64,000 nt of DNA. Source: an uncultured Actinomycetes bacterium (GTDB lineage Bacteria > Actinomycetota > Acidimicrobiia > Acidimicrobiales > RAAP-2). Positions 16,677 to 48,928 of this stretch are shown here, piece after piece. Positions within the stretch are counted from its first letter, which is position 1; each line of letters begins with the position of its first letter. The notes beneath the pieces are model-generated. The model did no database searches. It was given only the letters and a program-made list of their open reading frames with translations, and was not told where the DNA came from. A program made the translations under genes and the position numbers. The stretch lies in NCBI GenBank assembly GCA_903873775.1, contig CAIQPR010000050.1, forward strand, positions 1 to 64,000. Direction: 5' to 3'.

Positions 16677-19600
16677 CGCGTTTCTCCCGCGAGAATGTCC
16701 GAGGCGTGTCGCACCACGTTGGCCGGGAGTGACCACGTGGCGATCCCGTGGGTCGGATCATCACTCGACACGAGGCCCCGCAGGTACAAATACGCGAGAC
16801 CGCCCAAGTGGCGATCGGCGTCGTAGTCGGGGAGGCGGTCGCGGAGGAAACGGTGCAACGCCACGGAGTACAAGAGTCCCTGGAGCGGATAGCCCGAGGC
16901 GGACATCTCTCTCACCAGTGACGATGGGGAGTAGTCGGGTGAGAGGGTCACCAGATTGGTCTTGTAGTCCACCACAACAAAACGTGGAGGATCGCCCGGA
17001 ATCTCAACGACGAGGTCAATGGATCCGGTGAGGTAACCCTCGCGCAAGACGTTCGGATCCGCCTCGTCGCGCACGCGACGGAAGAAATCGACGTACGGAC
17101 CCTCGGCGTCCCCCTGCACGACGGCGTCGCACATCTCGGCCAGTCGTCGCGCGCGTGCGGGTCCGTCGGCGAGCGGGAGCGTGAAACGCATCTCACGACT
17201 GGTGCGGTGCGTCCCCACGAAATCGTCAAGACAGGCCCCGTCGAACATCTCTCCGAGCGGGCGACGGAGAAGTGACGAAAATACAGGCACGAGATAATCA
17301 GCCGGCGACAGCCCGGCGCTCTCGAACGTCCGTGTCACAACTTGTTCGAAGTGTGTCGACGACGACGGGACGACGCCCACGACCGACTCCAGCACGGAGT
17401 GGACGGCGTTCCCGAGATCGGTGCCGCGCCACTCACCGAAAGCGAAGGCGCCGGGGCGTTCGACGAGGTCCGACAATTCGAGCACGGGCGCGTCGAGTCC
17501 CTCATCAAGGGCGCGCTCGTCATCCGCCACGGCGTTCTGCACTCCACCCGCCTCGGCGGACGAGGTGGCGTCGGCATGGACGTGAAGTGCGCTGTAGGAC
17601 CACCGTCGATTGATCTCGGGAACGCGGGGCGCACGGCGCACGCGGGGCGCGGTGCGCGCGGGTCGCGGGTCGTGAACGAGGTCGCTCGCTGGAGGGACGA
17701 ATGGTAGGTCCAGCGTCGAGATGAGAGGCCCTGAAGCAGCTTCGCGACCCGGGTTGTCGCTCGCCTCGGCGTCGAAGGCGTCGATCAAGCTCTTGAATTG
17801 TGCCGCTCCTTCATGGACCCAGGCCACGAGAAGCGACTCCGCTCTCGTGAGAGCGACATAGATGAGCCTGCGCGTTTCGTCACGGTCGTCGTCGCTGACG
17901 GGACCAGCGAAGCCCTCCGAGGACGTCAGGCTGCGAGGGTCGATCACGCGTCGCTCGCCCGTGCTCCACGCCGCCACGCCGTCCGTGCGCAAGTGGCCGG
18001 TGCGCTCAATATCAGGCACTAAGACCAACGGAAATTCAAGCCCCTTCGAGGCGTGAATCGTCATCAACCGCACCGCGTCATCATCACTCTCTATACGACG
18101 TTGGGCGCTATCGCCGTCATCATCCTTGGCCTGCGCGTCGCTGATGTGCTCGTCCAGCCAACGAAGAAGGCGTTGCGGTGTTGCGGGACCCGCGAGGTCC
18201 TTCGCGGCCAGCTCGGTCACATGTTCGAGGTCGGTCCAGTGGCGCTCGCCCTCCGAGGTCGTTCGAATGATCGCGAGCACGCGCCCCGACACCACCACTC
18301 GGGACAATGCGCTCACGCCGGTGGTCGGAAGAGCGTGCAGGAGGTCGCGGAGATCTTCCGTTGGAACATCGCGGAACCACGTTGTTGCGAGCAGGGCCAG
18401 ACGCCGAGGGTCGTGCGGATGACAGAGGCTCCAGAGGAGCACGCGCAACTGCGACGCTGCCGTCGAGGTAAACACCGATGAGCCGCCGAGACTGACCGCC
18501 ACGACGCCACGACGGGCGAGATACCGCTGGAGTTGTCGAAGTATGACCCCACGTCGCAACAAGATGGCGATGTCGCGTGCCGGGACACCACTCGCCGTTA
18601 GGGCGACGATGGTGGCGTGTACGTCCCGGAAAATGTCCGCTCCTACGGTTGTGGCGTCGGTGCGACGAATGTGGAAATGACCGCGGCGATCGTGCTGTCG
18701 AGGGCTCGGCACGACGGGGTCGTACTCGATGGGTTCGGGTCCCGACGACAGATGCCACCCGTGTCGCCGTCCCGCGAGGAAAAGTGCGTTGAGGGCGTCG
18801 AGGAGGGGTGGGGCGGATCGATAGTTCGTCTGAAGGTCAATCAGTGTCGAGGTTGTCGAGTGAGCGAGTTCGTGGCGCAGTGATTGGTAGACCTTGACGT
18901 CTCCGCCACGAAATCCGTAGATAGCTTGTTTGGCATCTCCGACGATCACCATGGGCGTGGGCGAGGGACCCTCGCGAAACAGCCGCTGAAAGACGTTCCA
19001 CTGGAGGGCGTCGGTGTCCTGGAATTCGTCAATCATGACCAGTCGAAATTGCGCGCGCAGTCGCTCGACGAGAGCGGTGGGATGACTGCGGAGTTGTGCG
19101 TGGATGTCCATGAGCAACTCATTGAACGTGGCGACGTGCTCCAGTTCGCGCAGCGCGCGGAGACGCTCGTGAGCGTCACGGAGAATACGCACGGCGGTCT
19201 CTGCTCGCTCTGTCTGGACGGCATCCATCTCAATGGATGCGAAATCAACGTGGGCGTCGTCGAAACCACCGCCCCCTTCGACAACATCGAGTGCGCGGAT
19301 CAGCTTGGCCTGTAATCGTTCGGCTGCCGGCGTGACCCCCGAACTCTCATCTTCCATAGTGTCCACCAACAATCCAAACCCGGGGTCACGACTGTCGGCC
19401 AGACGGGTCAGTGTCTCGTTGACCGCTCGACGAGTCCACCGTGTGCCGGACGTCATCTCGTTATCGCCGGTATTGCGAACGGCTCCCGCGAATGAATGAA
19501 TTGTTCGGGCGTGGACGTCGTCGAGTTCTGCCACGATCGCGTTGCATCGCTCGCGGGCCACCGCTACACCCACCGTTGCGACACGGTCTGCGAATGCGAT

Positions 19601-35905: not shown

Positions 35906-36742
35906 GTGTTTTCCTCCTCGCGTCGGCGACTTGTGAGTGCTGTCGTGCCCGTGCTGGTGGCCCTTCTCGTCAGTGCAGGTCCCGCGGGTGCCTCCGTCGC
36001 GTGGCCCCCGACGGGCCCGTCGAATCACGGATGGACGCTCAACGGCTCCGCGGCGTGGACCGGCGGGGCGATCGGTCTCACCTCCGCGGGCGGCGTCTCC
36101 CAAGCCGGCTCCGCGTTTTACGGGACGCCCCAAATGTCGGCGGGCTTTCACATTCAGTTCTTCTTGAATATGGGAGCGACGGGCGGAGCGGATGGCATCA
36201 CGTTCGTCATGGCCGACGCTGATCAAACCCCGCCCACCACGCTCGGTGCGGCCAACGGTGGACTTGGCTTTACCAATACGCCGGGTCTCGTCGACGGCGT
36301 CCAAGGTGGCATTGGCGTGGCCTTTGTGACGCACCAAGACCAGGGAGATCCCTCCAATAACTTTGTCGGTGTCCTCACGGGCGGTTCTGGGAGCCAGAAG
36401 GACTGGTTGGATACGAGTGAGGTGCCGTTTCCGCTGTACGGACTGCACCTCGTCGACGTCACGTACGACCACGGTGAGCTGACCGTTGGTCTCGACGGCG
36501 CCAACGTCCTCGTGCTGACGGTGACGCTGCCGTCAAGCGTGCGCGTGGGATTCACGTCTTCGAATAACGCATCGTCGACCGGTGATCACCAAGTCACCAT
36601 CTGCAACTGTACGAGCGAGGACCAATTGTCCGCCGGCGGCGCCCTGGGTCTCTTGACGATGGGCGCGTTGGGGGCAGGCATCTTCGCGGTGGGCATGTGG
36701 TCCGCGCGGCGACGTCATCGGCGTTCGATCACCCTCGCGTAA
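35906..36742 (+). CDS. Secreted L-type-lectin-like protein with C-terminal anchor
   Basis: A 278-residue exported protein. A Sec signal (residues 1-30: RRR, hydrophobic core, ending AGA) is followed by a beta-sandwich that resembles legume/L-type lectins (AGFHIQFFLNMG, GGADGITFVMAD, GGIGVAFVTHQD, LHLVDVTYDHGELTVGLDG). Such domains bind sugars. The C-terminus is a hydrophobic segment (GALGLLTMGALGAGIFAVGMW) followed by ARRRHRR, a tail like those of proteins processed by exosortases, although no PEP motif is present. It is followed by a HEAT-like membrane protein gene, mirroring the pair at 43391/45779. Confidence 0.75.
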   Translation: MFSSSRRRLVSAVVPVLVALLVSAGPAGASVAWPPTGPSNHGWTLNGSAAWTGGAIGLTSAGGVSQAGSAFYGTPQMSAGFHIQFFLNMGATGGADGITFVMADADQTPPTTLGAANGGLGFTNTPGLVDGVQGGIGVAFVTHQDQGDPSNNFVGVLTGGSGSQKDWLDTSEVPFPLYGLHLVDVTYDHGELTVGLDGANVLVLTVTLPSSVRVGFTSSNNASSTGDHQVTICNCTSEDQLSAGGALGLLTMGALGAGIFAVGMWSARRRHRRSITLA

Positions 36743-36818
36743 ATCCCCGAATTGTGGTGACGACGGCCCTAGGCTCAAAGAGAATTTTTGTCCGCGCGTG
36801 GATGCCTAGAGGAGAGTG

Positions 36819-37760
36819 ATGTCGGACGGTTGGCGTTTCGCCATTATCGCAGTGGGGGCCGCGCTCATCTTGGGCGCTGTTCTCTGGCGATACGTCCGCT
36901 CGCAGCGGGGATCTCAGCAGCTCTCTCGGGCGCTACGGGATCCGGACCCCCTCGTTCGTCGGGCCGCAATTGAGGTCATGAGTGAGCGCGGCATCGGCGA
37001 TTACGCCCCGGCACTGCGTCCTTTGATCAATTCAGAACCTGACGCGAATGTTCTTGACGCCTTGGCGCTCGCCATTACGCGCAATCAGTGGGAACCGGCC
37101 GACAATCGCAAGTTGGTCGAATTGCGCCTGTGGGCAAAGGCCCGTAACGAGGCGAATCCGCCCGAACCGACTCTCGTGCCGCCGGCGCCGGCGCCGGTCG
37201 TCGCGCCGGAGCCTCCGGTGACACCAGTCTCCGAGGAACCCGCGCCGGAGCCGATCCCGAGCGACGTCACGGTCGTGACCCCCACGCCACTCGTGGCTCC
37301 CGTTCCTGTGGTGGCGCAACGGTCCGCCGTGGTCGCTGATGCTCAACGCGAGGCCGACGACATCATTGCGCGCGCGCAGGCCACCGCTCGGTCGATCGAG
37401 GCCGCTGCGCGGGCGGAACGTATCGCGGTGCTTGAGCAGACGTACGCCGAAGTTGCCGCCATCGTGGCGTCCGCGCGCGACGGCCAAAGCGCGGTCCTCG
37501 CGGACGCGCGGGCGTTACTGGAGCGCTTCATGGCGGGTGACGGGCAGCTTCCTGAAGAGCCGTTGATCGCGCGCCGAGGGACTGTGGAAATTCATCACGT
37601 GGCGACAGAGGAGCCGGTCGAACCCGATCACAGCAGCGTCAACTCTGATGACGATGACGATGACGACGAAGATGGCGATGTCGACAATGACGACAACGAG
37701 CAGAAGGTCGTCATTGTGATTCGCTCCGAGCAGGCGCCCAAGAAGAAAAAGAAGAAGTAA
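36819..37760 (+). CDS. Single-pass membrane protein with HEAT-like, Pro-rich, coiled-coil and charged tail regions
   Basis: A 313-residue mosaic. Residues 6-25 form a membrane helix; 30-110 a HEAT-like helical region (DPDPLVRRAAIEVM, LRPLINSEPDANVLDALALAI); 110-165 a Pro/Val-rich linker; 170-235 an Ala-rich coiled coil (EADDIIARAQATARSIEAAARAE). Then comes a run of seven Asp in an acidic block, and the protein ends in KKKKKK. The HEAT-like part aligns with the product of 45779-46195. ATG 36819 is 4 bases after AGGAG. The orientation suggests a cytoplasmic body. Function unknown; a scaffold for the neighbouring surface/glycan system is a guess. Confidence 0.75.
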   Translation: MSDGWRFAIIAVGAALILGAVLWRYVRSQRGSQQLSRALRDPDPLVRRAAIEVMSERGIGDYAPALRPLINSEPDANVLDALALAITRNQWEPADNRKLVELRLWAKARNEANPPEPTLVPPAPAPVVAPEPPVTPVSEEPAPEPIPSDVTVVTPTPLVAPVPVVAQRSAVVADAQREADDIIARAQATARSIEAAARAERIAVLEQTYAEVAAIVASARDGQSAVLADARALLERFMAGDGQLPEEPLIARRGTVEIHHVATEEPVEPDHSSVNSDDDDDDDEDGDVDNDDNEQKVVIVIRSEQAPKKKKKK

Positions 37761-37764
37761 GTCT

Positions 37765-38451
37765 CTACTCCGCGATGTACGTGCGGAGGACCTTGATCGC
37801 TTCGAGCACATCAGCGACGTCGTGCCAGGGGAGTGTCTGCGATTCTCTGGCGGCGTATTCGCCCGTGCGCACGCGAATGGCGCGCATACCGACACTGGCC
37901 GCACCGGCGACATCCTTTTCGGGGCGATCACCGACGTAGACGACGTGTGATGCGGGGACACCCAGCGCCTCCAGCGCGGCACGAAATGGTGCCGGGTGCG
38001 GTTTGCGAAACTCGCGACCAATTTCGTCAGAGATCACAATCGCGTCAAAGTGGTGGGCGATACCGAGAGCCGCGATTTTTGCTCGCTGGATGGTGACGTC
38101 ACCGTCCGTAATGAGACCGAGCGGTACCACCGCGTGTAGCGCGGTCAACGCATCTTCGACGTTGTCGATGAGGGGGAGCGACTCTGGCGCAAAGCTGCGA
38201 AAGCGGTCCACAAGAAGCTGAATATCTTGTGACGGGTCGAGATCGGCGACCGCGCGGTCGATGATGCCGCCGCGGTCGCTGCCCTGCGATGAATACAGCG
38301 ACAATTTCTCGTACCACGCCTCCCGCGGCACTGAGCTCCGTTGGGCGGCGAACTCCGCGACGTGATGCCAGGCGGCGTCGAGGAACGACTGTTGCAAGTA
38401 GAGCGTGTCATCGAGATCGAAAATCACTGCACGAACGCTGTCAGTGCTCAC
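37765..38451 (-). CDS. HAD-superfamily hydrolase
   Basis: A 228-residue haloacid-dehalogenase-type phosphatase. Motif I is FDLDDTLY (Asp 12 nucleophile, Asp 14), motif II the Thr in GLITDGD, motif III the Lys in RKPHP, and motif IV VYVGDRPEKDV. A four-helix cap lies between motifs I and II, as in pyrimidine- or sugar-phosphate phosphatases. GTG 38451 overlaps the epimerase stop (GTGA), making it the last gene of the exosortase/glycan operon. A sugar-phosphate substrate would fit the operon. Confidence 0.88.
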   Translation of the reverse strand: MSTDSVRAVIFDLDDTLYLQQSFLDAAWHHVAEFAAQRSSVPREAWYEKLSLYSSQGSDRGGIIDRAVADLDPSQDIQLLVDRFRSFAPESLPLIDNVEDALTALHAVVPLGLITDGDVTIQRAKIAALGIAHHFDAIVISDEIGREFRKPHPAPFRAALEALGVPASHVVYVGDRPEKDVAGAASVGMRAIRVRTGEYAARESQTLPWHDVADVLEAIKVLRTYIAE

Positions 38452-39569
38452 GCCGGCGTCCACTCCGTAAGGTCGGGTTCGCGGGTGGGCAACAGGTCAA
38501 GCACGGCCGGATCTTCAAGAGCGTCCGCGATTTGTTCCGACGTCGTGCCGTCGCCGTAGAGACACGGCGCACCCGCCACGTACGTCAGTGTTGCGGCCTC
38601 CGCAAAGTGCGCGGCCAGAGCGAGAACGCGTTCGACGTCCACACCGGAGAGTGCGGCAACACCCTGTTCAACGCCCTCCCATCGGGGCGTGGAGCGACGC
38701 AGGACGATGGCCGGAACGCCGAAGAACGCGGCTTCTTCTTGGAGGCCGCCGGAGTCCGTCACGACGACACGAGACGTCGCGAGAACCGACAGGAGGTCCT
38801 CGTAGGGAAGAGGATCGCACAGGGTGACGTCGATCGACTCAAGGCGTGACCACAGGCCACTCTCGAGGAGTCGCGCGCGCGTCCGAGGATGCACGGGAAA
38901 GGTGACTGGTCCGACTTCAGAAGAGAGCCGCTCGATAATGGACACGAGGTCGGTGAGGCGCGCGGGATTGTCGACATTGGTGGGACGGTGGGCCGTGAAC
39001 AACACACCACGCCGTTGGTCCGCGGGGACGCGCGTGAGACCCTTGCCCACCAACACATCAATAACCGGATTTCCGACGACGCGGATTCGTTCCTCGGGGA
39101 CGCCCTCTTCGCGCAAGAAACGAGCGGCCAGAGGGGTCGGTGCGAAATGAAACCGGGCCGACGCGGCGGCGATCTTTCGGTTCGTCTCTTCGATGGACGT
39201 TTCGTTGAAACTCCGTAGCCCCGCTTCCACATGAACTAGCGGGATCTGGTGTCGTCGTGCCGCCAGGCAAAACAGGGGCACCGTGTAGGTGTCACCCAGG
39301 ACAACCACCAGGTCCGGAGATTGTTCGGCCAAGACATCGAGTGCCTTCGTGAGAATCACGCCCACGCGTTCGGACTCAGCGGCCGGGAGGTCCCAACGAA
39401 TCTCCGGCTGAATGCCGAGCTCGTCAAAGAACGTGTCGGTGAGGTTGGCGTCGTAGTGCTGTCCGGTGGCGAGTGTGATGACGTGGTGGCCGCGTCGGGA
39501 AAGAGCGGTAATCACGGGTGCCAGCTTGACGATCTCCGGCCGCGTGCCGAGCGGTACGAGGATGTTCAT
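38448..39569 (-). CDS. wecB: UDP-N-acetylglucosamine 2-epimerase (non-hydrolysing)
   Basis: A 373-residue GT-B-fold epimerase converting UDP-GlcNAc to UDP-ManNAc for surface polysaccharides. Conserved blocks are GTRPEIVKLAPV at the N-terminus, GDTYTVP, HVEAGLRSF, TAHRPTN and TDSGGLQEEAAFFGVP. It overlaps the ATP-grasp gene upstream and the HAD gene downstream by 4 bases each. With the GT2 synthase and PIG-L deacetylase in the same array it points to an amino-sugar glycan. Confidence 0.94.
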   Translation of the reverse strand: MNILVPLGTRPEIVKLAPVITALSRRGHHVITLATGQHYDANLTDTFFDELGIQPEIRWDLPAAESERVGVILTKALDVLAEQSPDLVVVLGDTYTVPLFCLAARRHQIPLVHVEAGLRSFNETSIEETNRKIAAASARFHFAPTPLAARFLREEGVPEERIRVVGNPVIDVLVGKGLTRVPADQRRGVLFTAHRPTNVDNPARLTDLVSIIERLSSEVGPVTFPVHPRTRARLLESGLWSRLESIDVTLCDPLPYEDLLSVLATSRVVVTDSGGLQEEAAFFGVPAIVLRRSTPRWEGVEQGVAALSGVDVERVLALAAHFAEAATLTYVAGAPCLYGDGTTSEQIADALEDPAVLDLLPTREPDLTEWTPA

Positions 39570-40513
39570 CCTTCGAAGACTTCCTCGAAGTACCGCAGCA
39601 TGGACACGCCCGGTCGGGTCGTGAGGCGAGTGCGGTCGATCTCACGGCCGAGCATGGCGGCGAGGTACTGACCCACAAGATCACAACCCGCAGCCAGTGA
39701 CAGTGGGAGCCCTCCCGAAAATCGAGGGTTTACCTCGACGAGCCCGAGCGTGCCGTCCTCGTCGAGAAATCCTTGGAGGCAGATGGGTCCGGTGAGACCG
39801 ACGGCCAGAGCGGTGGCGTGAACGAGCTCGTTGACGCCGTCGTGGAGAAACGTTTCGCCCTTGGTGGAGATACCGGCCTTGGTTTCCGTGCGCCACCTCG
39901 GCACGCAGCCGACGAGGGTCCCGCCGAGATCGATAAGGCCGTCGGCCGTGAACTCGCGTCCCTGCAGTCGCGTTTGAACAATCGGATCGGGCACGTGCGC
40001 GAGGACCCACGGAAGATCGTCAGGATCGTCGACGGAGAAGACGTCACGCGAGCCTCGTCCAAATCGGGGCTTGACAATCCACGGCCCGGGGACCCCATCA
40101 GCGGATCGATTGGTGGCCGGAATGGGTATTCCTGTTCCCCGAAGGACCTCGGCAAACTTCCACTTATCGACACACGTCTCCACGGCGTCGCGAGAGGGAA
40201 ACCAGTGGGCCACGTCGGCGGCCTCAAACGCGGGATGGGCGTCGCTCAGCACACCGAGTTCTTCCGCGACGGTGGAAATCACTGCGTCCACGCCGTGATT
40301 CGACGCGACGTCCAGCAGGGTGTCGACGAACGTGGGGTCGGCGGACCGCGGACCCACCACCGCAGCATCCGCGAGTCGAAGGCCGACCGCGGAGGTGTCG
40401 CAGTCCATGGCGATGACGCGGTGTCCGTCCTGCCGTAATCGACGGATCACGGCAACACCTGCCGGGCCTCCCGCGCCTGTGACTAGGACCGTGACGTGTT
40501 CAGACGTGTTCAA
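39566..40513 (-). CDS. ATP-grasp domain protein, CarB/PylC-like
   Basis: A 315-residue protein with an N-terminal Rossmann-like domain (VLVTGAGGPAGVAVIRRL) and an ATP-grasp domain. WIVKPRFGRGSRDV is the nucleotide-binding lysine region, and LVEVNPRFSGG the metal-binding Glu/Asn motif. The family forms amide or ester bonds by acyl-phosphate chemistry and resembles CarB fragments and PylC; the substrate is unknown. The only suitable start appears to be TTG 40513, overlapping the exosortase gene by 14 bases. It may attach an amino acid or acid group to a glycan or precursor. Confidence 0.85.
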   Translation of the reverse strand: MNTSEHVTVLVTGAGGPAGVAVIRRLRQDGHRVIAMDCDTSAVGLRLADAAVVGPRSADPTFVDTLLDVASNHGVDAVISTVAEELGVLSDAHPAFEAADVAHWFPSRDAVETCVDKWKFAEVLRGTGIPIPATNRSADGVPGPWIVKPRFGRGSRDVFSVDDPDDLPWVLAHVPDPIVQTRLQGREFTADGLIDLGGTLVGCVPRWRTETKAGISTKGETFLHDGVNELVHATALAVGLTGPICLQGFLDEDGTLGLVEVNPRFSGGLPLSLAAGCDLVGQYLAAMLGREIDRTRLTTRPGVSMLRYFEEVFEG

Positions 40514-41042
40514 CGTGGTTCTCCTGTGTACGGGGGATAGCGGCTCTTTTGTCCATCAGCATCATCAACATGATCATGAATCCACCGAGGGTGTAAATAA
40601 ACGTGAACGTGCTGCCGGCCCAGTCGTGGAAGAGAACCAAACTCCCACGACCGTAGAAGATACCCACCACGATCGACACGGTGATACGAACGATGTTGCC
40701 ACCCACCACGAGGCCGACTGCCGTCAGCGTGGCGAATGTCCGACGGAATGCTCGCCCTCTTGGCGCGATGGCACCCATGCAAATGATGGACAGAGCGGAG
40801 GCGAGGGATGAACAGGAGAGAGTGACCACGGCTTCGAAGGGCTCGGCTCCCGACGGGAGCACGGCGATCGAGTAGGGCTGAATGTAAATGACGTGATTGC
40901 CGGCGCCGAAGAGGCCGAGCAGTGCGACGGAGGCACGCGTCTCCGCAACACGGAACGGGTCCTTCGCCACGGCGTAGATCACCCCGAGGACAACGAGCAG
41001 CGCAAGGGTTCGGTAGATCAACCGAATGCTTGATGCGTTCAC
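40500..41042 (-). CDS. Exosortase/archaeosortase family protein
   Basis: A 180-residue integral membrane protein with about five to six hydrophobic helices. The three exosortase catalytic residues are visible: Cys 77 in TLSCSSLASAL, Arg 119 in NIVRIT and His 139 in LFHDWAG. The FHDWAGS segment strongly recalls PEP-CTERM exosortases, which cleave substrates at a C-terminal signal and transfer them to the envelope or a glycan. GTG 41042 overlaps the GT2 stop (GTGA). It is short and lacks the extra C-terminal domain of EpsH-type enzymes. The best candidate substrate is the product of 43391-45661. Confidence 0.88.
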   Translation of the reverse strand: MNASSIRLIYRTLALLVVLGVIYAVAKDPFRVAETRASVALLGLFGAGNHVIYIQPYSIAVLPSGAEPFEAVVTLSCSSLASALSIICMGAIAPRGRAFRRTFATLTAVGLVVGGNIVRITVSIVVGIFYGRGSLVLFHDWAGSTFTFIYTLGGFMIMLMMLMDKRAAIPRTQENHVEHV

Positions 41043-42388
41043 GGTGCCACCTGCGTCGTGGGGTCCTGAGCGCGGCTGGTCTTCACCCACGTATATGGCC
41101 GCCCGAGAAGACCGTCAAACCACGCTTTGGTACACAGCGCGATGGAGACGAAGAACAGCGGGAGGAAATACACCAGCGAGAAGACCCATCGTCGAGGTGC
41201 CCTACCGATGAGGAGACCGCCGCCGAGTTCCAAGAGCGGTCCGAGGAACAAGAGTGTCCACAGCACGAACGCGTTGGCCGCGGCGCCAGGGTGTGTGAGA
41301 CCGATCATCCACGGAATCAACAGCACGAGACCAAGGCAGCTGAAGACAGGCATGTGGAACACGAGGAGGAACATCATCGTTTCGATCTTCTCGGAAAGAG
41401 TCAATCGTCGAGACTCGAGAACTTGTCGTCGGTAGTCGCGCCACACCTGCTGATGTCCGCGGGCCCATCGATACCGCTGTCGCCAGAATCGAGACAGCGT
41501 GACGACACCTTCCTCGTAGTCCACCGCGGTCACGTCGTAGCGAACACGTTGTCCGCTCAAGATGAGCTTCATTGTGAGGTCGGTGTCTTCGGTCACCGTA
41601 TCGGGGTTCCAGCCTCCGACTTCCCGCAATGAACTCGCGCGCACGGCACAGTTGGCGCCACCATAGGCGGGGAGGCGGAAGATCGACTGTCGGCCGTACT
41701 CGTTCACTAGGTAGCCCGCGAGGTAGTCCATTGCGATAAGTCGCGTCAACGGTGAATCGTCGGGATTCACGATGGCGCATCGGCCTTGAACGGCACCCAC
41801 TCCCGGATCGTTGAAGTGGCGGGCGAGTCGCCAGACCACGTCATTGGCGGGCTGGTGATCCGCGTCGAAAACAACAATGATGTCCCCCGTCGCGATGGTT
41901 AGCGCGTCGTTCAGGGCCCCAGATTTTCCGCCACCGGCGCCCGGAGGGCGGTGAAGAACGTTGAGAATAGGGGTGACGGCCGCCAAGGCGTCCAACTTCT
42001 CGGGCGTCGAATCCGTCGACCCATCGTCGATGATGATGAGCTGCAGTTGCGAGTGGGGATAGTCCAGATTGGCCAGACTCGCCACGAGCGACGCAACCAC
42101 TGACTCTTCGTTTTTACACGGCACGAGAATGGTGACGCGGGGGAGAGCATCGGGCGTCGATTGATCAAGAGCAGGCGAAAGGTCAGTGGCCGCTGACTTC
42201 ATCGCTCCGACGGCGAACACCATGTGGCGCGCGAAAAAGATGATGAAAACCACTTCAAGGAAAATGATGAGGATGGAGTTCACGGTGTTGGCGCCGAGAA
42301 CCGCGACGCCCACGAGGACGGCCCCGAGCAAACTCAACAGCACCCACGGCGCACCGTTGGGGCCTCCGCCGTGGTTCGGAGTCGCCAT
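41039..42388 (-). CDS. Membrane GT2 glycosyltransferase, PgaC/BcsA-like
   Basis: A 449-residue processive-type glycosyltransferase. Two N-terminal helices precede a GT-A domain with VPCKNEE, IIDDGSTDST, FDADHQP (DxD), TEDTDL (catalytic Asp) and QRYRWARG (QxxRW, product gate); three to four further helices follow. Such synthases polymerise and export UDP-GlcNAc- or UDP-Glc-derived chains. ATG 42388 lies 7 bases after a TAAACT element and heads the five-gene overlapping run GT2, exosortase, ATP-grasp, epimerase, HAD. The substrate is not readable, but wecB suggests an N-acetylhexosamine. Confidence 0.9.
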   Translation of the reverse strand: MATPNHGGGPNGAPWVLLSLLGAVLVGVAVLGANTVNSILIIFLEVVFIIFFARHMVFAVGAMKSAATDLSPALDQSTPDALPRVTILVPCKNEESVVASLVASLANLDYPHSQLQLIIIDDGSTDSTPEKLDALAAVTPILNVLHRPPGAGGGKSGALNDALTIATGDIIVVFDADHQPANDVVWRLARHFNDPGVGAVQGRCAIVNPDDSPLTRLIAMDYLAGYLVNEYGRQSIFRLPAYGGANCAVRASSLREVGGWNPDTVTEDTDLTMKLILSGQRVRYDVTAVDYEEGVVTLSRFWRQRYRWARGHQQVWRDYRRQVLESRRLTLSEKIETMMFLLVFHMPVFSCLGLVLLIPWMIGLTHPGAAANAFVLWTLLFLGPLLELGGGLLIGRAPRRWVFSLVYFLPLFFVSIALCTKAWFDGLLGRPYTWVKTSRAQDPTTQVAP

Positions 42389-42395
42389 TGGGTCC

Positions 42396-42401
42396 AGTTT
42401 A
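42396..42401 (-). promoter_or_regulatory. -10 element TAAACT, leaderless start
   Basis: On the minus strand TAAACT lies 7 bases before ATG 42388, giving the GT2-exosortase operon its own leaderless promoter downstream of the PIG-L gene. Confidence 0.5.
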
Positions 42402-42471
42402 CGCACGGGTTAGAGCGAAAACGAGATTGCTCACCACGATCGAGCGCGCCCCGGCGATGCCGAGGAGAATG

Positions 42472-43131
42472 TCAGTGGGTCTGATTTAGGAGGAGGAGTT
42501 CTTGCTCCGGCGTCATGCGGTGCGCCCCAAGGTCAAACTGCATCCGTTCGCACATGAAACCCTCGGCAAAGCGCATCCGCGCCGTGAAGCCACGGTACCG
42601 AGCCTGGGCTTCGATCGCCTCAAGGTCCACGAGCCCGTTGCGCTCCACTTGCGAGCCGTGGGCCCGTAGGAGAGCGAGCTTGCCTTCGACGTAGCCGTCC
42701 ACATCAACGAAGATCGTGGGCACAAAACCAATCGTGCTGGGCGATTCGTACTGGAGAACCGTGGTCGCGCGACGGGCAGCGGCAAGTGTCGCCACGGCGG
42801 TCGCCCGGTGGTCTTGGTGCGTGTCGCGGCTGGCGTGCGTGTAGACGACGTCTGCTCCGGTTTCCTTCAACACAGCTTCGATCGAACCAACGGCGGTACG
42901 ACCTTCCGGGACCGCTCCGTCCTCAAAGTTTCCCCAGAAGAGATTCGCTCCGAGCAGCTTGGCGGCGTCTTCTTGTTCGTGCGTGCGCGAACGCGCCATC
43001 TGAGGACCCTGTTCGCCGGTGGTCATTACCAACATGGAAACTTCGTGGCCACGTGCGATGTGAGCGAGGAGGGTGGCGCCGCAACCCAACTCAATGTCAT
43101 CCGGGTGAGCTCCGACTGCCAAGACCCGCAT
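42472..43131 (-). CDS. PIG-L family deacetylase
   Basis: A 219-residue LmbE-like zinc deacetylase. AHPDDIELGCG at the N-terminus supplies metal ligands and the catalytic Asp; HASRDTHQDHR supplies the last His. The family removes N-acetyl groups from GlcNAc-containing compounds such as mycothiol and bacillithiol precursors or glycolipids. ATG 43131 follows AGAGGG. It lies 84 bases before the GT2 gene on the same strand and is driven by the promoter at 43231-43259. Position suggests that it acts on the glycan made by this array, not on mycothiol. Confidence 0.9.
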   Translation of the reverse strand: MRVLAVGAHPDDIELGCGATLLAHIARGHEVSMLVMTTGEQGPQMARSRTHEQEDAAKLLGANLFWGNFEDGAVPEGRTAVGSIEAVLKETGADVVYTHASRDTHQDHRATAVATLAAARRATTVLQYESPSTIGFVPTIFVDVDGYVEGKLALLRAHGSQVERNGLVDLEAIEAQARYRGFTARMRFAEGFMCERMQFDLGAHRMTPEQELLLLNQTH

Positions 43132-43152
43132 AATCCCTCTTCTTCGATTTTT

Positions 43153-43165
43153 CGCCAGTTTGGCG
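43153..43165 (-). promoter_or_regulatory. Small hairpin in the PIG-L leader
   Basis: CGCCA-AAC-TGGCG on the minus strand forms a perfect 5-bp stem about 20 bases before the ribosome site, and a TCCC/GGGA stem lies just upstream. The leader is about 90 nt, unusually long for this window. No known riboswitch class is recognised. Confidence 0.35.
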
Positions 43166-43230
43166 GTATTTCTCCCTTGGGGGAAGAGCACCCACCTGTC
43201 CGATAAATTTTCTTCTTTGCGGACCTAGAA

Positions 43231-43259
43231 AACGTACAGGTTAGTCGACACAGTGTCAA
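43231..43259 (-). promoter_or_regulatory. Promoter for the PIG-L / glycan operon
   Basis: On the minus strand, -35 TTGACA (43259-43254), a 17-base spacer and -10 TACGTT (43236-43231) make a near-consensus sigma70-type promoter reading toward the PIG-L gene. Confidence 0.6.
43247..43257. promoter_or_regulatory. Palindrome GACACAGTGTC overlapping the -35 box
   Basis: An 11-base palindrome (5-bp arms, one central base) covers most of the minus-strand -35 box, a position expected for a repressor operator. A related inverted repeat lies 35 bases away at 43293-43307. Confidence 0.45.
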
Positions 43260-43292
43260 GGGGCATCTATCACAGAAAGTGCACCCCACTAT

Positions 43293-43322
43293 TTGACACA
43301 ACGTCAACTTCTAGATTATTTT
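43293..43322 (+). promoter_or_regulatory. Promoter for the large surface protein gene
   Basis: TTGACA at 43293-43298 and TATTTT at 43317-43322 (18-base spacer) in AT-rich DNA read toward 43391. The -35 box is the left arm of an inverted repeat TTGAC-N5-GTCAA (43293-43307), possibly an operator. Confidence 0.45.
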
Positions 43323-43336
43323 TTTTGCCTACTACG

Positions 43337-43380
43337 GAGATTCGCGTCGGTTGTTCGAGAGAACAATACGGACCGATCTC
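43337..43380 (+). promoter_or_regulatory. Structured 5' leader hairpin before the surface protein gene
   Basis: An inner stem TTGTTC-GAGA-GAACAA (43351-43366) with a GNRA tetraloop is enclosed by GAGAT (43337-43341) with ATCTC (43376-43380) and TCGG/CCGA. The structure ends 10 bases before ATG 43391. It could stabilise the mRNA of an abundant protein or control translation. Confidence 0.5.
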
Positions 43381-43390
43381 TCAGCAAGAA

Positions 43391-45661
43391 ATGGATACAC
43401 GCATGCGAATTGTTCCCTCGAGTCTTCGACGCGCCCTCGCTGGTGCTGCTGCAGGCGCCGTTGTGGTGCTGTCGGTGTCGGCACCGGCATTCGCCGACGC
43501 GAATGCGACCATCACGAAGAGCGGCGTGGACGTGACCAACAGCTCGACCAGCGTGGCCAACGTCGGTGACACCATTAAGTGGACGATCTCCTACGAGAAC
43601 ACCTCGGGCAAGACCATTTCCGCCGACATCCAAGACGGCATCGTCGCCCCCAACTCCTACGTCGCTGGATCCCTGCAGGCTCCCGCCGGGTGGATCCCCG
43701 AATGGTCGACCAACAACGGATCGACGTGGCTGACGACCGAGCCGACCCCCGCGTCATCGGTGACGAATGTCCGCGCCTACGCGTCCTTCATCGGTGATTC
43801 ATCCACGGGTAACGCCGCGGTTCTGCCGGAGCCGAACGTACCTCTGGCCGCGAGCCTCGCGGAGAGTGGTGGCGACGGATTCCAGACCTATTTCACGCCG
43901 ACGTCTGTGTGCACGACCTTCCACGTTGACAGTCAATTTGAGGCGGAGTGCTTCAACAAGACCACTGGCGCCGTTGAGTCGGACAAGGTGATCTCGTCCT
44001 CGATTGCCACGCTGGACCGCGCTCAGCCGGTTCAGGACATCGCCACCGGACGCGTGTACTTCCTCGGTTCCACGGGTGGCACCGACGCCATTGTCTGCCT
44101 TGACCTGTCCAACACCAGCAACATCACGCTGTGCAGCCCGAAGGGGTACACCTCCATTGGCTCGAAGTCGGCGTCGCCCGACCTCGTGAAGGTCGGCTCC
44201 AGCATTTATGCCTGGGACGGATCGAAGTTCTACTGCGTCACGACCAGCATGGCGCTGTGCGCCAACCAGCCTTTCGCATCGTCCATTTCGTCGTCGGACG
44301 ATGCGTCGGCCCTTGTCTCGGGCGGCCTGATCTACGCCACGAGTGGCGCCACCTCAAATGGTGGCGTGAACACGAGCCAGTACGTGACTTGCTTTAACCC
44401 CGCCACCCACTCCACGTGCACGGGCTGGACGGGTGGCACGCCGGCAGGATTTGTGAATGTCGCCACGTCGTTCCCGACGTCAGGGAACTCGCAGTACGCC
44501 GGCGCCGACTACATCGTGCCGCTGACCAATGCGTCCGGCGCCGAAACTGGAGTGTGCACGCACAGCTCCTTCGTGCAGTCCAACCCCTACACCGGAAGTC
44601 GTTGGGCCTGTTTGAACAACAACAGCTCCGTGAACACCGGTGCCGCGGCCGAACTGGACGCCTTCCACAGCACCCACCTTGGTGTGTACACCGGCGGACT
44701 CAAGGCTGAACTGGGTACCCGCTCGGGCTCGCGCATCTTCCTGCTCTACGCCCACGATGCGTCGAATGTCTCGGGTAACGAAGTGGACTGCTTCGACTGG
44801 GCCACGGGCACGGGCTGCACGGGTGGTACGGGCTCAGACGGCTGGAGTGGTTGGAGCAATTCGGCCAACCCCGCCCAGGGACAGATCATGTTCCCGGCGC
44901 TCTCGGCCTCAAATGACCGCTACTCGAACACCGTGGGCCAAGAGGGTCTCTACTCCGTGGCGGTTGACCCGTACGACCCGGTGTGTTTCTGGTCTGACGC
45001 GGACAGCGGTTTGATCCGTTCAATCGACGTCGCGACCGGCGTGGCGGGCACCTGCAAGACGTCCGCCACCACGGAAGTCGCTGCGGCGCCGACGGCGGCC
45101 GCTGGCGCCGCGTACTGCGACGGCAGCCCTTCGCACGTCACCAGTTGGAACCAAGTGAAGATCACTGGTCTTGCGCCGTCGGACTTCTCCGAGGTTCTCG
45201 TCACGCTGTATGACGCAAACGGACAGCCGGTGAGTGGCTTCGAGAACGTGACGACGACGAACGGCGTCCTCGACATCTCGTCCATTCCCTTCAGTGGTGA
45301 CGACACGTCGCTCACCGCGGACGTGACCGTTCAGGGCGTTCCGAGCAATCTCACGTGGCCCGCGAATAATGCTCCGGGTGCTCAGATCACGTGGATTGGT
45401 GACGCGGTTCAGGTGTGCTTCGAGACCACGGTGCAGTCCGTCACGCAGACCACGACCTTCCATAACACGGTGATCGAGACGACGACGCCGACCGGTGACC
45501 CCGGTACCACGACGTCCACGAACTCGAATGACTTCACGGTCTCCATCAACACGGTCGACGAGCCGCTCGCCGGTGCGATCGGTGCCATGGTGGTCGCGCT
45601 GCTCGCCGCTGGTGGATTCCTGGTGCTGCGAGGACTTCAGAAGCGTCGTCAGAACATCTAG
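43391..45661 (+). CDS. Large secreted beta-propeller-like protein with exosortase-type C-terminal signal
   Basis: A 756-residue exported protein. A Sec signal peptide (residues 1-35, ending APAFADA) precedes a DUF11-like beta domain (VGDTIKWTISYENTSGKT). Next comes a repeating region to about residue 560 in which each unit carries a Cys pair (CLDLSNTSNITLC, FYCVTTSMALC, CFNPATHSTC, CFDWATGTGC), suggesting a disulfide-braced propeller. Two further beta domains follow. The C-terminus VDEPLAGAIGAMVVALLAAG, then helix and LQKRRQ, is tripartite: EP motif, hydrophobic segment, basic tail. It has its own promoter, leader hairpin and tandem terminators. ATG 43403 is an alternative start. Probably a major cell-surface protein; function unknown. 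Confidence 0.8.
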   Translation: MDTRMRIVPSSLRRALAGAAAGAVVVLSVSAPAFADANATITKSGVDVTNSSTSVANVGDTIKWTISYENTSGKTISADIQDGIVAPNSYVAGSLQAPAGWIPEWSTNNGSTWLTTEPTPASSVTNVRAYASFIGDSSTGNAAVLPEPNVPLAASLAESGGDGFQTYFTPTSVCTTFHVDSQFEAECFNKTTGAVESDKVISSSIATLDRAQPVQDIATGRVYFLGSTGGTDAIVCLDLSNTSNITLCSPKGYTSIGSKSASPDLVKVGSSIYAWDGSKFYCVTTSMALCANQPFASSISSSDDASALVSGGLIYATSGATSNGGVNTSQYVTCFNPATHSTCTGWTGGTPAGFVNVATSFPTSGNSQYAGADYIVPLTNASGAETGVCTHSSFVQSNPYTGSRWACLNNNSSVNTGAAAELDAFHSTHLGVYTGGLKAELGTRSGSRIFLLYAHDASNVSGNEVDCFDWATGTGCTGGTGSDGWSGWSNSANPAQGQIMFPALSASNDRYSNTVGQEGLYSVAVDPYDPVCFWSDADSGLIRSIDVATGVAGTCKTSATTEVAAAPTAAAGAAYCDGSPSHVTSWNQVKITGLAPSDFSEVLVTLYDANGQPVSGFENVTTTNGVLDISSIPFSGDDTSLTADVTVQGVPSNLTWPANNAPGAQITWIGDAVQVCFETTVQSVTQTTTFHNTVIETTTPTGDPGTTTSTNSNDFTVSINTVDEPLAGAIGAMVVALLAAGGFLVLRGLQKRRQNI

Positions 45662-45778: not shown

Positions 45779-46195
45779 GTGGTCTTTGTCCTTGGTGCAC
45801 TCGCGCTGATTGTGATTGTCGGATTCGGCATCCGGTCCTTCGTGTCGTCACGTGAACGACGCCGCGCGTGGGTTGACGTTGCCCGCCTGGTCCAGTCGGC
45901 GGACGCGGAGGATCGTCGGCGAGGGGTTGCCGAGATGCCAACACTTCGCGTGACCGACTGGCAGCCTCTCGCTGCGTGGCTCATACGTGTAGAAGAAGAT
46001 GATTCCGTCACACGCGAACTCGCGACGTGGTTGTCCGATCCCGTTACCGTCAAGACTTTTGGGTTTGGGAATTACGTGGATGAATTGTTGTGGGCTCGCG
46101 TGTGGATGAGTCAGCACCCGTTGGGATTAGACGACGAGACCCTTCGAGGCTTGACGACGTCGCCACACTCGGGCGATCAGTCCCCACGGGAGTAA
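45779..46195 (+). CDS. Single-pass membrane protein with HEAT-like region
   Basis: A 138-residue protein with one N-terminal helix (VFVLGALALIVIVGFGIRSFV) and a helical domain with DAEDRRRGVAEM, DWQPLAAWLIRVEEDDSV and YVDELLWARVW. It aligns with residues 30-110 of the product of 36819-37760 (shared RR..A.EM, D[YW].P...LI..E.D..V, ELRLWAKA/DELLWARVW). The 3' end overlaps the convergent gene by 69 bases. Function unknown. As with its paralogue, it follows a surface-protein gene. Confidence 0.72.
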   Translation: MVFVLGALALIVIVGFGIRSFVSSRERRRAWVDVARLVQSADAEDRRRGVAEMPTLRVTDWQPLAAWLIRVEEDDSVTRELATWLSDPVTVKTFGFGNYVDELLWARVWMSQHPLGLDDETLRGLTTSPHSGDQSPRE

Positions 46196-48928
46196 CAGGC
46201 CAAGAGCAAGAATCCCGGCGCTCACGACAGAAACCCAAAGGCCAACTGACTGGACCATCGTGAGTCGATACGACAACGTCACCGTCGCGGGTTGCGCGGT
46301 CGACAATGGAACGTACATAAACCCCGGACCGGCGGGATAGACAGTCGCGGAACGGCCGTTGATGGTGGCCGTCCAATTCGGCGTCAAACTTTCTTTTACC
46401 AGCACGCCCGAGGATCCTCGAGGAGCGCGCACCGTAATGGGACCGTTCAGCGGCAGGTGCGCGCTGCTCGCGGGTGCGGATGTGGCTGAAGGCAAGTTCA
46501 AGAGACTCAGATTGAAGGACGCTTCTGCCGACACCTTCGAAATGGCGCTGTGGTACGGAAGATTGAGGCCCGACCACGTGATTTCTCCCTGGCCGACACC
46601 CAGACGGGCGACCACGACATGCGACGACGAACGGAGAAGCGTCTGCGTTCCGGGGTGCAGAGCCAGTCCCGTATCCACATTCCAGAGACCTCCCCCGACG
46701 TTCGGGGGACTAAATGCGGTTAGCTGCCGACGAGATTGCGTCGGCAGCGTCGAACTGGGAACGAAATGCCAGCTGCCGCCGAGAGACGTCACTCCGATGA
46801 GGCTGACGGGAATCGGGCCCCCGACGGCACTGACCGCCGCCAAGGTGGCCTCGTTGCCATCGGCTTCGAGCAACACGTGGCCTCCACCATTCGCGTAGGC
46901 GCGTAACGTGGCGGCCACGTGGGGCGCGTTGGTGATCGGCGTGGTGCCGTAAATCGCGACAGCGGTGAAGTGCCGAAGATCCGCGACGGAATACTCGTCG
47001 AGAGCCCGGTCGCCCTCAACAGGAATGACGGTCGTCGGTCCCTGCCCCGCGAGTCCCGTCTGACGAAGGAAATAGTCATAGGTCGTGTGGTCGGGCGTAA
47101 TGACGAGAACCGTTGGGGCTGACGTGGCCGAGGCGATGGGCTCAGGGTTCTGATACTGAACGAGCTGATACGGAGACGCGGCGGTCGTGGAGCCCACGCT
47201 CGCGAAGGTATGCGGTTCGTCTAGGTAGGGAGCCTGGGCACTGAGTCCTGGGCCGACGTACATCCACTTGATCGACCACCAGTTGAAGAAGTATTCGCGT
47301 TGCGCGAGCGGAAGCGACGGATTGGTGAGTGAGGTCTCGAGCCAGTACTGCCAGTCCAAGTGGAGATTTTGCTGGTTGATGTAGCCACGTATTTGCGGCG
47401 TTGTGGTATCCGCATTGATCCAACTCGTGATGTCGTCGGTGAGTCCCCCGATTCGGAAGGCCTGCGTGCCGTGGGCTTCTGGTGGAAGCAGCGCGGCGAG
47501 TGCTCGCTGTTCGGGAGTCTTTCCGTTAAGGGCCGGCGGTAGACCTGCGACGACGTACGCGAGTAGCCACACGACAAGTGCCACGACCATGAGATCGACG
47601 CCCGCTCCGACGAGGCGCGGCAATGATCTTTCAATGACGGCAACACCCAGACCGATGAGCGGCGCGGCACTGAGCGACAAGAAGATGACGAGCTCGGCCG
47701 GTTTGATGCTCGAGAGGTTCCATTGCGTCTTTGGGCTTAAGTCGACGAGGGAATAGAGCGCAATGGCGGCGGGGGCCACCAAGAGCGCGAGGGTGACGGG
47801 GAATGTTGGAAGGCCCGGACGTCGCGTAGCCGAGTGACGCGTCAGCGTCCATTCCAGACACACAACGAGAACCGCGACGACAGCGAGTGGCGCGCAGAGG
47901 AATGCCATGCCCTTCATCTGTGGCGCATGAAAACCGAAAAGGATGTTCAGGGAGAGAGGCTGATTGCGGACCAGGCTGAGCGCGCTACCGGGATCCTGAA
48001 GATACGTTGGGATGCCCAGGGGTAGCTGGGGGAGATAGAAGAACGCGACGGCCCCACACGTTGCCACCAGTGCTGCGAGACCTGACGTGAGTCGGTCTCG
48101 CAGGGGTCGCGTTGGGGTGAAAGTGAGGAGGCACGTGACCGTAATCACGCCCACCACGCCGCCCTCTTGGTGGGACAACAGCGAGACCGACAGGGCGATA
48201 ATGACCAGAATCAAGCGCCGGCGGGTGGGGGATGAGACGTACCACGCCGCGAGGGCCATGGCGATGCTGGTGCACGTGATCGCGAGCAACCGCGCGTATT
48301 CGCCCTCGATGAGTGATTGCTCCCAGAGGGCGGGCGTGGCCAGCAACACCAGCCCCGAGATCAATGCGGCGATCCTCGACGTCGTGACAATCCGAACGAA
48401 TGAATAGGCCCCGGCGATCGTCGCCATCATGAACACCGCCGTCAATGCCACCATCGTCCCGCCGAGGGACCCACCCGTGACCGTGGCTGCAGCGAGAACG
48501 AGAAGGTGGTAGGCGGGCCCGTAGATACCGGGGATGCCGCGCGTGCCGCTGTACCACGCGGCGTTCCATTGAATATGGGGGAAGGAGTGCTGGAGCAGCG
48601 AGACGTAGCTCAGATGGCCGAAATCGTCGTACCCCTTCGGGAATCCTCGAAAATCACCGGTACGCCACCCAATCCAGGCACATACGGAGGCCAGGACGAG
48701 AAGGGCGGCCAAGTCTTCGAGCCACGTCAAACGACGGCGAGGCGTGGTGGCGTCGGGGGTCTCGTCATGCTGACGGATCCACTCTCGAAGCTCCCTCGGC
48801 GTGCGCCACGTGGGCGCGACGAATCGCTCAGGCGCGCGTTCGGTTGGTGTGCGTTCGCTTGTCGTCAACCAAGGACCCTCGCTGTCGAACCCGGAGGCCC
48901 GAACGGCGTCGTACGCCGTTCGGATCAA
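46127..48928 (-). CDS. Large GT-C/YfhO-like polytopic membrane protein
   Basis: A 933-residue protein. After a 70-residue polar N-terminus come about 12-13 membrane helices with KGYDDFGHLSYV (acidic/His loop typical of GT-C glycosyltransferases) and YGPAYHLLVL. An outer part of about 350 residues follows, including a Rossmann-like segment (TVLVITPDHTTYDYFL, GGGHVLLEADG) and a YfhO-like beta domain (VLVKESLTPNWTATINGR), then a final helix. It probably transfers a lipid-linked sugar outside the membrane. The start at TTG 48928 is uncertain. It neighbours the exosortase region and may modify the surface protein or glycan. Confidence 0.72.
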   Translation of the reverse strand: MIRTAYDAVRASGFDSEGPWLTTSERTPTERAPERFVAPTWRTPRELREWIRQHDETPDATTPRRRLTWLEDLAALLVLASVCAWIGWRTGDFRGFPKGYDDFGHLSYVSLLQHSFPHIQWNAAWYSGTRGIPGIYGPAYHLLVLAAATVTGGSLGGTMVALTAVFMMATIAGAYSFVRIVTTSRIAALISGLVLLATPALWEQSLIEGEYARLLAITCTSIAMALAAWYVSSPTRRRLILVIIALSVSLLSHQEGGVVGVITVTCLLTFTPTRPLRDRLTSGLAALVATCGAVAFFYLPQLPLGIPTYLQDPGSALSLVRNQPLSLNILFGFHAPQMKGMAFLCAPLAVVAVLVVCLEWTLTRHSATRRPGLPTFPVTLALLVAPAAIALYSLVDLSPKTQWNLSSIKPAELVIFLSLSAAPLIGLGVAVIERSLPRLVGAGVDLMVVALVVWLLAYVVAGLPPALNGKTPEQRALAALLPPEAHGTQAFRIGGLTDDITSWINADTTTPQIRGYINQQNLHLDWQYWLETSLTNPSLPLAQREYFFNWWSIKWMYVGPGLSAQAPYLDEPHTFASVGSTTAASPYQLVQYQNPEPIASATSAPTVLVITPDHTTYDYFLRQTGLAGQGPTTVIPVEGDRALDEYSVADLRHFTAVAIYGTTPITNAPHVAATLRAYANGGGHVLLEADGNEATLAAVSAVGGPIPVSLIGVTSLGGSWHFVPSSTLPTQSRRQLTAFSPPNVGGGLWNVDTGLALHPGTQTLLRSSSHVVVARLGVGQGEITWSGLNLPYHSAISKVSAEASFNLSLLNLPSATSAPASSAHLPLNGPITVRAPRGSSGVLVKESLTPNWTATINGRSATVYPAGPGFMYVPLSTAQPATVTLSYRLTMVQSVGLWVSVVSAGILALGLLLPWGLIARVWRRRQASKGLVV

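Follow-up and report, generated by a model that had tools for sequence, protein, structure and literature searches.

The described systems closest to the locus reported here are exosortases, archaeosortases, and sortases. XrtG of Firmicutes is a small Gram-positive exosortase whose gene adjoins that of a family 2 glycosyltransferase (GT2; the TIGR03110/TIGR03111 pair), and we know of no PIG-L, ATP-grasp, and HEAT-repeat set that accompanies this pair. EpsH, the exosortase of the PEP-CTERM system, has the motifs Cys-x-Gly, Asn-x-x-Arg, and His-x-x-x-Gly, and the founding paper, available in excerpt like the other papers cited by PMC number, lists Actinomycetota as a group without PEP-CTERM (Haft 2006, PMC1569441). 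Sortases have a tripartite C-terminal signal (LPxTG) and Cys-His-Arg catalysis and are not homologous to exosortase (PMC1569441). In Methanosarcina, PssA and PssD are encoded next to artA, are involved in processing, and are the proposed makers of the amine acceptor archaetidylethanolamine (PMC7157517). Exosortases have been suggested to be transpeptidases that leave some new group on the substrate (PMC11980579). The present analysis concerns an exosortase locus in positions 1 to 64,000 of contig CAIQPR010000050.1 (the window) from an uncultured Actinomycetes bacterium. The locus probably encodes a system that sorts proteins by their C termini, with an actinobacterial exosortase whose type has not yet been named and an operon that would make the acceptor, likely an amino sugar. 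This assignment would place exosortase sorting in the group that the excerpted founding paper lists as lacking PEP-CTERM (PMC1569441).

The exosortase, its operon, and the tail signal

The initial annotation placed a small exosortase in one operon with GT2, ATP-grasp, UDP-N-acetylglucosamine (UDP-GlcNAc) epimerase, and PIG-L genes. Family searches bear out this gene set (PF00535, PF02655/PF15632, TIGR00236, and PF02585) and add a HAD phosphatase. The order on the (-) strand is PIG-L, GT2, exosortase, ATP-grasp, epimerase, and HAD. The genes are co-directional, and neighbors overlap or are separated by 65 bases or fewer. The operon extends to position 37765, and the epimerase and HAD genes fall outside the interval first assigned to it (40500-45661). 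The genome is 1.97 Mb in 81 contigs and is 91% complete. A PF09721 search of the whole genome returned a single match, the window exosortase, at 21.5 bits and under the cut-off.

The most likely start codon of the exosortase is the GTG at 41042, where GTGA overlaps the GT2 stop codon. The protein clears the exosortase/archaeosortase superfamily model TIGR04178 (35.7 bits, cut-off 23) and narrowly misses PF09721 (23.3 bits, cut-off 25.7). Cys77, Arg119, and His139, numbered from this GTG, lie where the annotation had put them and are invariant in 7/7 and 57/57 aligned sequences. Ser78, Asn116, Ser123, Gly127, Leu137, Phe138, Trp141, and Gly143 are also invariant in the window protein and its 56 relatives. 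The relatives were collected with peptide patterns, one of which covers positions 136-143, so part of the conservation at His139 follows from the way they were selected; Cys77 and Arg119 lie outside that pattern. All 57 aligned exosortases match TIGR04178 at E ≤ 0.01. The AlphaFold model of the exosortase is confident and helical, with a predicted local distance difference test score (pLDDT) of 91.9. The invariant Cys, Arg, and His in a helical membrane protein place the enzyme in the TIGR04178 superfamily. Foldseek did not match the model to any PDB entry at E ≤ 0.001, and a profile search of solved structures with the exosortase gave one chance-level match only (E 0.37).

The 756-amino acid protein (substrate 1) is transcribed divergently from PIG-L and has the two features ascribed to it, a signal-like helix at the N terminus and a C-terminal tail, VDEPLAGAIGAMVVALLAAGGFLVLRGLQKRRQNI, composed of DEPL, a helix, and KRR. 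Six open reading frames (ORFs) in the window have a C-terminal helix and a basic end. Only two of the six, substrate 1 and an L-type lectin (substrate 2), carry the motif [PS]-x-x-G-x-x-G, and both flank the exosortase operon, which argues that the motif tails are not chance. The genome encodes at least four proteins that share a C-terminal signal of [PS]-x-x-G-x-x-G, a helix, and an Arg-rich end. They are substrate 1 and the lectin in the window and, encoded on other contigs, a DUF642 protein and a second lectin, as identified by tail and lectin searches; the second lectin was recovered again by lectin homology. The system is thus broader than the one-substrate arrangement first proposed. A DEP variant of the PEP motif, also proposed, did not hold up, as the Glu is Ala in the nearest relative, G028 (DAPL). 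Close exosortases are found in three genomes (the window genome, G028, and G019), whose nine tails all fit [PS]-x-x-G-x-x-G; 7/9 have an acidic residue at -2. What survives of the initial interpretation is the pairing of an exosortase with a C-terminal signal beside glycan genes. Away from the exosortase, 21 tail ORFs were found in the fetched regions; two fit a loose form of the pattern and none the strict form.

The co-occurrence of exosortase and substrate, put forward with the annotation as a check, was examined in 120 family genomes of varying completeness. Full-length homologues of substrate 1 occur in three genomes, the window genome, G028 (same genus), and G019 (another genus), and in 0/117 others. 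A close exosortase (52-68% identity to that of the window) is present in exactly these three genomes. The tail is retained in G028 and G019, and in G019 the substrate 1 homologue and an adjoining lectin homologue are on a contig other than that of the exosortase. G084 and G026 have only partial matches. The other four exosortase genomes of the 120 (G020, G021, G033, and G034) have no substrate 1, and an unrelated tail protein lies beside their GT2. Across genomes, the co-occurrence holds by protein homology and not by a short tail profile. That profile, A2, failed as a genome-wide discriminator in 395 class genomes, giving no separation of exosortase genomes at low scores. Only five A2 matches exceed 30 bits (three in the window genome and two in G028), and four of the five are in the profile itself. 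AlphaFold modeling of substrate 1 gave a pLDDT of 32.6 (two sequences), and no fold is claimed.

Lectin homologues are found in 10/120 family genomes. The four tail-bearing lectins (two in the window genome, one in G028, and one in G019) are single-domain proteins confined to the close-exosortase genomes. The tail is in 0/6 complete lectin proteins of genomes without an exosortase match, and a seventh such protein runs off its contig. Proteins of about 1500 residues that match L-type lectin twice and lack a C-terminal tail are encoded in exosortase-positive genomes at L206 565-5145 (contig 32 of the window genome), L207, L208 4969-9405, and L209. Similar double-lectin proteins occur in genomes without an exosortase match. 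The DUF642 protein (contig 26) has an orthologue on contig 1 of G028. The two tails are TDLPAAGITG and TDLPSGGLTG, and PF04862 is matched at 35.2 bits (cut-off 27). The tail-bearing form was found in the window genome (G000) and G028 only. No tail was seen in the DUF642 homologues of G019, G006, and G026; the G006 protein is cut off by the end of its stretch, and that of G026 is broken. The DUF642 substrate gene of the window genome is split over two contigs (end of C26 and start of C12; L124 and L125) whose ends overlap and are identical. In G084, which belongs to the same genus and has no exosortase match, distant relatives of substrate 1 (L119 6363-10183 and L120 5552-8305) end in LAFTG, a helix, and RRR. 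We take LAFTG to be a sortase-type signal, and these tails are perhaps a natural anchor swap inside one protein family.

The cassette and its tail proteins in other Actinomycetota

A scan of database contigs identified 56 exosortase loci, all in Actinomycetota. The hosts are Acidimicrobiia and other metagenome-assembled genomes (MAGs), Geodermatophilaceae, Micromonosporaceae, Pseudonocardia, Catenulispora, a member of the Streptosporangiaceae, and an Acidothermus MAG. Six loci (L021, L022, L031, L034, L050, and L068) are the same contigs as those of G019, G028, G034, G021, G020, and G033. Window proteins were compared with the 56 loci by tblastn, which detected ATP-grasp in 55, GT2 in 54, PIG-L in 50, the epimerase in 49, and HAD in 47. 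The same search found substrate 1 in one locus, the window lectin in none, and a sortase of the window genome's type in two. A profile search located the HEAT module in 55/56 loci, in the exosortase frame in 31, in the ATP-grasp frame in 15, and alone in nine. Because the module is joined to the exosortase in some loci and to ATP-grasp in others, it probably bridges the two proteins. All seven exosortase genomes of the 120 family genomes have HEAT homologues. Sister-genus transmembrane (TM)-HEAT proteins akin to the one in the window are encoded at L110, L111, and L115 (and L113 and L114) with no exosortase match; sugar-nucleotide or glycosyltransferase-like genes are near some of them.

Tail proteins at the 56 loci were identified with a motif-blind filter that selects a secreted-looking ORF with a C-terminal helix followed by Lys/Arg. 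The filter returned 46 tail ORFs, 41 at 2-6 kb from the exosortase and five elsewhere. Their density is 0.68 and 1.40 per 10 kb at 2-6 kb and 0.05-0.17 per 10 kb elsewhere. Nearly all of the tail ORFs at 2-6 kb (39/41) have the pattern [PS]x(1,2)Gx(1,3)G. With a strict filter and a distance of 8 kb or less, 39/56 loci have a tail ORF, 38 with the motif; that of L067 is probably a spurious match. Relaxing the filter while requiring the motif adds seven loci (L022, L024, L040, L041, L048, L050, and L074), and L053 was added separately. A tail protein is thus near the exosortase in 47/56 loci, or 46 if L067 is dropped. The loci are not independent: clustering at 60% identity reduces them to 22 groups. 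A tail that passes the strict filter lies 2-6 kb from the exosortase in 12 groups and 6-10 kb away in four, two of which have it at 6.0-6.1 kb.

The tails are of two types. P-x-G-x-x-G-G is found in Acidimicrobiia, Pseudonocardia, Catenulispora, and others, and LP-x-x-GNG is found in Geodermatophilaceae and Micromonosporaceae. In the exosortase tree a branch with 100/97 support separates the types with no crossing (15 PGxxGG and two PxxGxxG versus 29 GNG); 11 rows are unlabelled, eight labels were set by hand, and long branches were flagged. The agreement of tail type and tree could come partly from common descent.

Exosortase matches were found in 7/120 family genomes and 15/395 class genomes, a distribution that is patchy even inside the genus. 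The cassette is present in nine of the 15 (G000, G028, G147, G333, G177, G180, G134, G313, and G230), with PIG-L not seen for G177 and G180. The exosortase matches of the remaining six have E-values of 1.9e-17 (G159), 9e-14 (G452), and 1e-7 to 1e-5 (the other four). Of the cassette, the stretches taken from these six show no more than the exosortase itself or a distant GT2, and the six were excluded from the system. G159 (L165 9241-9645) and G452 (L166) have the better exosortase matches; the stretch taken shows no cassette gene in either, and their enzymes are possibly other exosortase types. In G210, G335, G297, and G392 (L169-L172), a weak exosortase-like match lies beside a different GT2 and a protein whose tail combines LLPIS with a helix and a terminal Arg-rich segment. 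L169-L172 showed no PIG-L/ATP-grasp cassette and possibly represent a second, separate exosortase-like system.

The features of the window are collected in Table 1. The gene of the TM-HEAT protein is convergent to HAD and is preceded by the lectin gene. The small TM protein gave no match to the HEAT profile. Homologues of the large membrane protein occur in 2/56 loci (L022, which is G028, and L027) and on a separate contig of G019, and the protein may be an accessory glycan enzyme. The L027 homologue (15136-18150) has, by eye, a HEAT-like stretch at its end in the same frame, and a homologue is encoded at L118 8831-11686.

Table 1. Exosortase operon, substrates, and neighboring genes in the window
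Feature	Position	Strand	Details
Exosortase	40500..41042	-	180 aa; ORF open from 41090
Membrane GT2 glycosyltransferase	41039..42406	-	PF00535 3.9e-27; nearest model PgaC/IcaA TIGR03937, 134 of 422 bits (under cut-off)
PIG-L family de-N-acetylase	42472..43191	-	PF02585 9.3e-27
ATP-grasp ligase	39566..40513	-	PylC-like N domain; ATP-grasp_3 / ATPgrasp_Ter (PF02655/PF15632)
Non-hydrolysing UDP-GlcNAc 2-epimerase, WecB-like	38448..39569	-	TIGR00236 256.5 bits, cut-off 210.15
HAD phosphatase	37765..38463	-	PF00702
TM + HEAT-repeat protein, free-standing in the window	36816..37760	+	PF13646
Substrate 1, 756-aa secreted protein	43391..45661	+	tail DEPLAGAIG-helix-KRR at about 45551-45658
Substrate 2, L-type (legume) lectin	35906..36742	+	PF00139 38 bits, cut-off 26.3; tail LSAGGALG-helix-RRRHRR
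Small TM protein downstream of substrate 1	45779..46195	+	56% identity in G028; no Pfam match; system membership uncertain
Large membrane protein, possible accessory	46127..48928	-	DUF6541/PTPS_related, PF20176 33.1 bits, cut-off 29

Proposed mechanism and competing explanations

A sorting function is well supported by these sequence comparisons, and the mechanism that we propose is as follows. The secreted proteins (substrate 1, the two L-type lectins, and the DUF642 protein) would cross the membrane via Sec until the C-terminal helix with its Arg-rich end halts export. The exosortase would recognize [PS]-x-x-G-x-x-G at the outer edge of the helix and cut there through Cys77, with the participation of Arg119 and His139. 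The new C terminus would then be passed by transpeptidation to an acceptor, most likely an amino-sugar glycan or glycolipid. In the predicted acceptor pathway, the epimerase would form UDP-N-acetylmannosamine (UDP-ManNAc), GT2 would transfer the N-acetylhexosamine (HexNAc), PIG-L would take off the acetyl group to give a free amine, and ATP-grasp would tailor an amine or carboxylate of the acceptor. The HEAT module may keep the exosortase and ATP-grasp together at the membrane. The logic of the acceptor proposed for PssA/PssD and of the transpeptidase suggested for exosortases would imply that the acceptor is a product of the operon. Cargo with lectin and DUF642 domains would be suited to binding glycans.

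A more specific form of this proposal, possible but on balance doubtful, is a bacterial working analogue of the glycosylphosphatidylinositol (GPI) anchor. Across Actinomycetota, an exosortase-HEAT-ATP-grasp membrane complex would join the cut C termini of surface lectins and other secreted proteins to the free amine of a glucosamine or mannosamine (GlcN/ManN) lipid, a dedicated, de-N-acetylated amino-sugar lipid made by the same operon. To our knowledge, no bond partner of bacterial exosortase substrates has been described. Seven functions travel together in most of the 56 loci, with HEAT in frame with either partner, and this co-travelling set and its fusions suggest that the acceptor pathway is small and fixed and involves a free amine. 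The cassette is present in cultured soil bacteria (Geodermatophilus, Blastococcus, Pseudonocardia, and Catenulispora), which makes the acceptor question directly testable.

Several observations weigh against the proposed sorting system. The motif is short and was derived from the same nine tails that it describes, and three of the nine (the second lectin and both DUF642 proteins) originally came from tail queries. Five larger lectin proteins and one DUF642 protein of exosortase-positive genomes have no tail. No convincing tail protein was found at nine to ten of the 56 loci (L021, L025, L030, L032, L033, L035, L043, L045, and L057); L035, L045, and L057 are near the ends of their contigs, and the substrates of the L021 genome are on another contig. 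At E ≤ 0.01, profile A2 matches 57/395 class genomes, and 51 of the 57 gave no exosortase match; it matches 6/15 exosortase genomes and is silent in 9/15. In the stretches taken, six of the 15 class exosortase genomes (G159, G452, G210, G297, G335, and G392) show no cassette. Seven family genomes that gave no exosortase match have HEAT homologues too. Six of these (G010, G018, G029, G041, G049, and G057, but not G096) were inspected and have other gene contexts, so HEAT alone is not diagnostic. The family genomes vary in completeness and a single-protein query can miss distant exosortases, which makes absences soft. The acceptor chemistry is drawn entirely from family names. The genome also encodes three sortases (PF04203), all on contigs other than that of the exosortase.

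Three other explanations were weighed. It is improbable that the exosortase cuts the proteins and releases them to the medium, with the glycan genes glycosylating them lengthwise and no acceptor made. According to the available excerpt (PMC12188702), release may be the fate of exosortase substrates in other systems, and such substrates have many glycosylation-associated residues; substrate 1 has Ser/Thr-rich stretches. However, HEAT shares one frame with the exosortase or ATP-grasp in 46/56 loci, which suggests coupled steps. We consider it quite unlikely that the tails are uncut membrane anchors and that the operon makes or exports a polysaccharide merely bound by the secreted proteins. The lectin (PF00139) and DUF642 (PF04862) domains could suit such glycan binding, and GT2, epimerase, and PIG-L are polysaccharide-type genes. 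A plain anchor needs neither a common seven-residue motif over unrelated folds nor agreement with the exosortase tree, and the exosortase retains its catalytic residues. Very unlikely is the idea that the tails are LPxTG-like signals cut by one of the three sortases while the adjoining exosortase does something else: LPAAG, LPEEG, and LPADG slightly resemble LPxTG and G084, which gave no exosortase match, has the distant LAFTG relatives of substrate 1, but the window tails lack T-G at that place and often L-P (SAGGALG, SSGGFNG), homologues of the genome's own sortases occur at only 2/56 exosortase loci (a search that may overlook divergent sortases), the stretches taken around the three sortases showed no motif tail, and tail-bearing forms follow exosortase presence as tail type follows exosortase clade.

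Relationship to named exosortase types and known systems

The initial annotation could not match the enzyme to a named Xrt type, and the model scores agree. The window exosortase is far under every named-type cut-off, with 30.8/145 bits for XrtS, 25.5/100 for ArtC, 23.3/150 for XrtR, and 16.8/102.75 for XrtG. Six further clade members are likewise below all of the cut-offs in this comparison, which covers the window protein and these six. XrtS (NF033767), XrtR (NF012138), and XrtP (NF012139) are the nearest curated models, yet the scores are far under their cut-offs. XrtS is the named-type model that matches 57/57 sequences at E ≤ 0.01. The window GT2 reaches 98 of 520 bits with the XrtP-associated glycosyltransferase model. 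XrtP matches were found in 0/296 phylum genomes, and the control was likewise silent in all. TIGR02602 is absent among the matches of the window exosortase at E ≤ 0.01. The XrtG pair differs from the window pair in both members, the XrtG-associated glycosyltransferase model giving 79.4/363.95 bits.

None of the NCBIfam models tried recognizes the substrate tails, and a [PS]xxGxxG-type pattern gives a way to search for substrates that these models miss. One Pseudonocardia and one Catenulispora tail protein from these loci match the choice-of-anchor P family (NF040603). Both window substrates fail to match it, and the family name leaves the anchoring enzyme open. The open-licence literature, among the matches listed, has no title or abstract on this cassette or on an exosortase signal of Actinomycetota. 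The tails share a tripartite build with sortase/LPxTG signals, but homologues of the genome's own sortases were not found at 54/56 exosortase loci.

Read as an exosortase sorting system, the locus resembles the PEP-CTERM/EpsH system, as excerpted, in several respects (PMC1569441). Both enzymes have the Cys, N-x-x-R, and H-x-x-x-G, both signals are built as a motif, a helix, and a basic end, and glycan genes adjoin both. EpsH has at least eight predicted TM helices, compared to a window exosortase of only 180 residues, and the Cys-x-Gly of EpsH is Cys-Ser-Ser in the window enzyme (PMC1569441). Cys77-Ser78 is kept in 57/57 sequences and is followed by S or A where inspected. The Pro-Glu-Pro of PEP-CTERM is not in the tails, which read DEPLAG in the window, DAPLAG in G028, and EVPAAG in G019. 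Archaeosortase ArtA/PGF-CTERM belongs to the same enzyme superfamily and has neighbor genes with a proposed role in making the acceptor; the acceptor proposed for it in the excerpted account is an ethanolamine lipid, whereas the window operon would make an amino sugar instead (PMC7157517). Exosortase systems in general are known; what the locus adds is a probable actinobacterial type that matches no named one and that has a signal and a HEAT/ATP-grasp coupling of its own.

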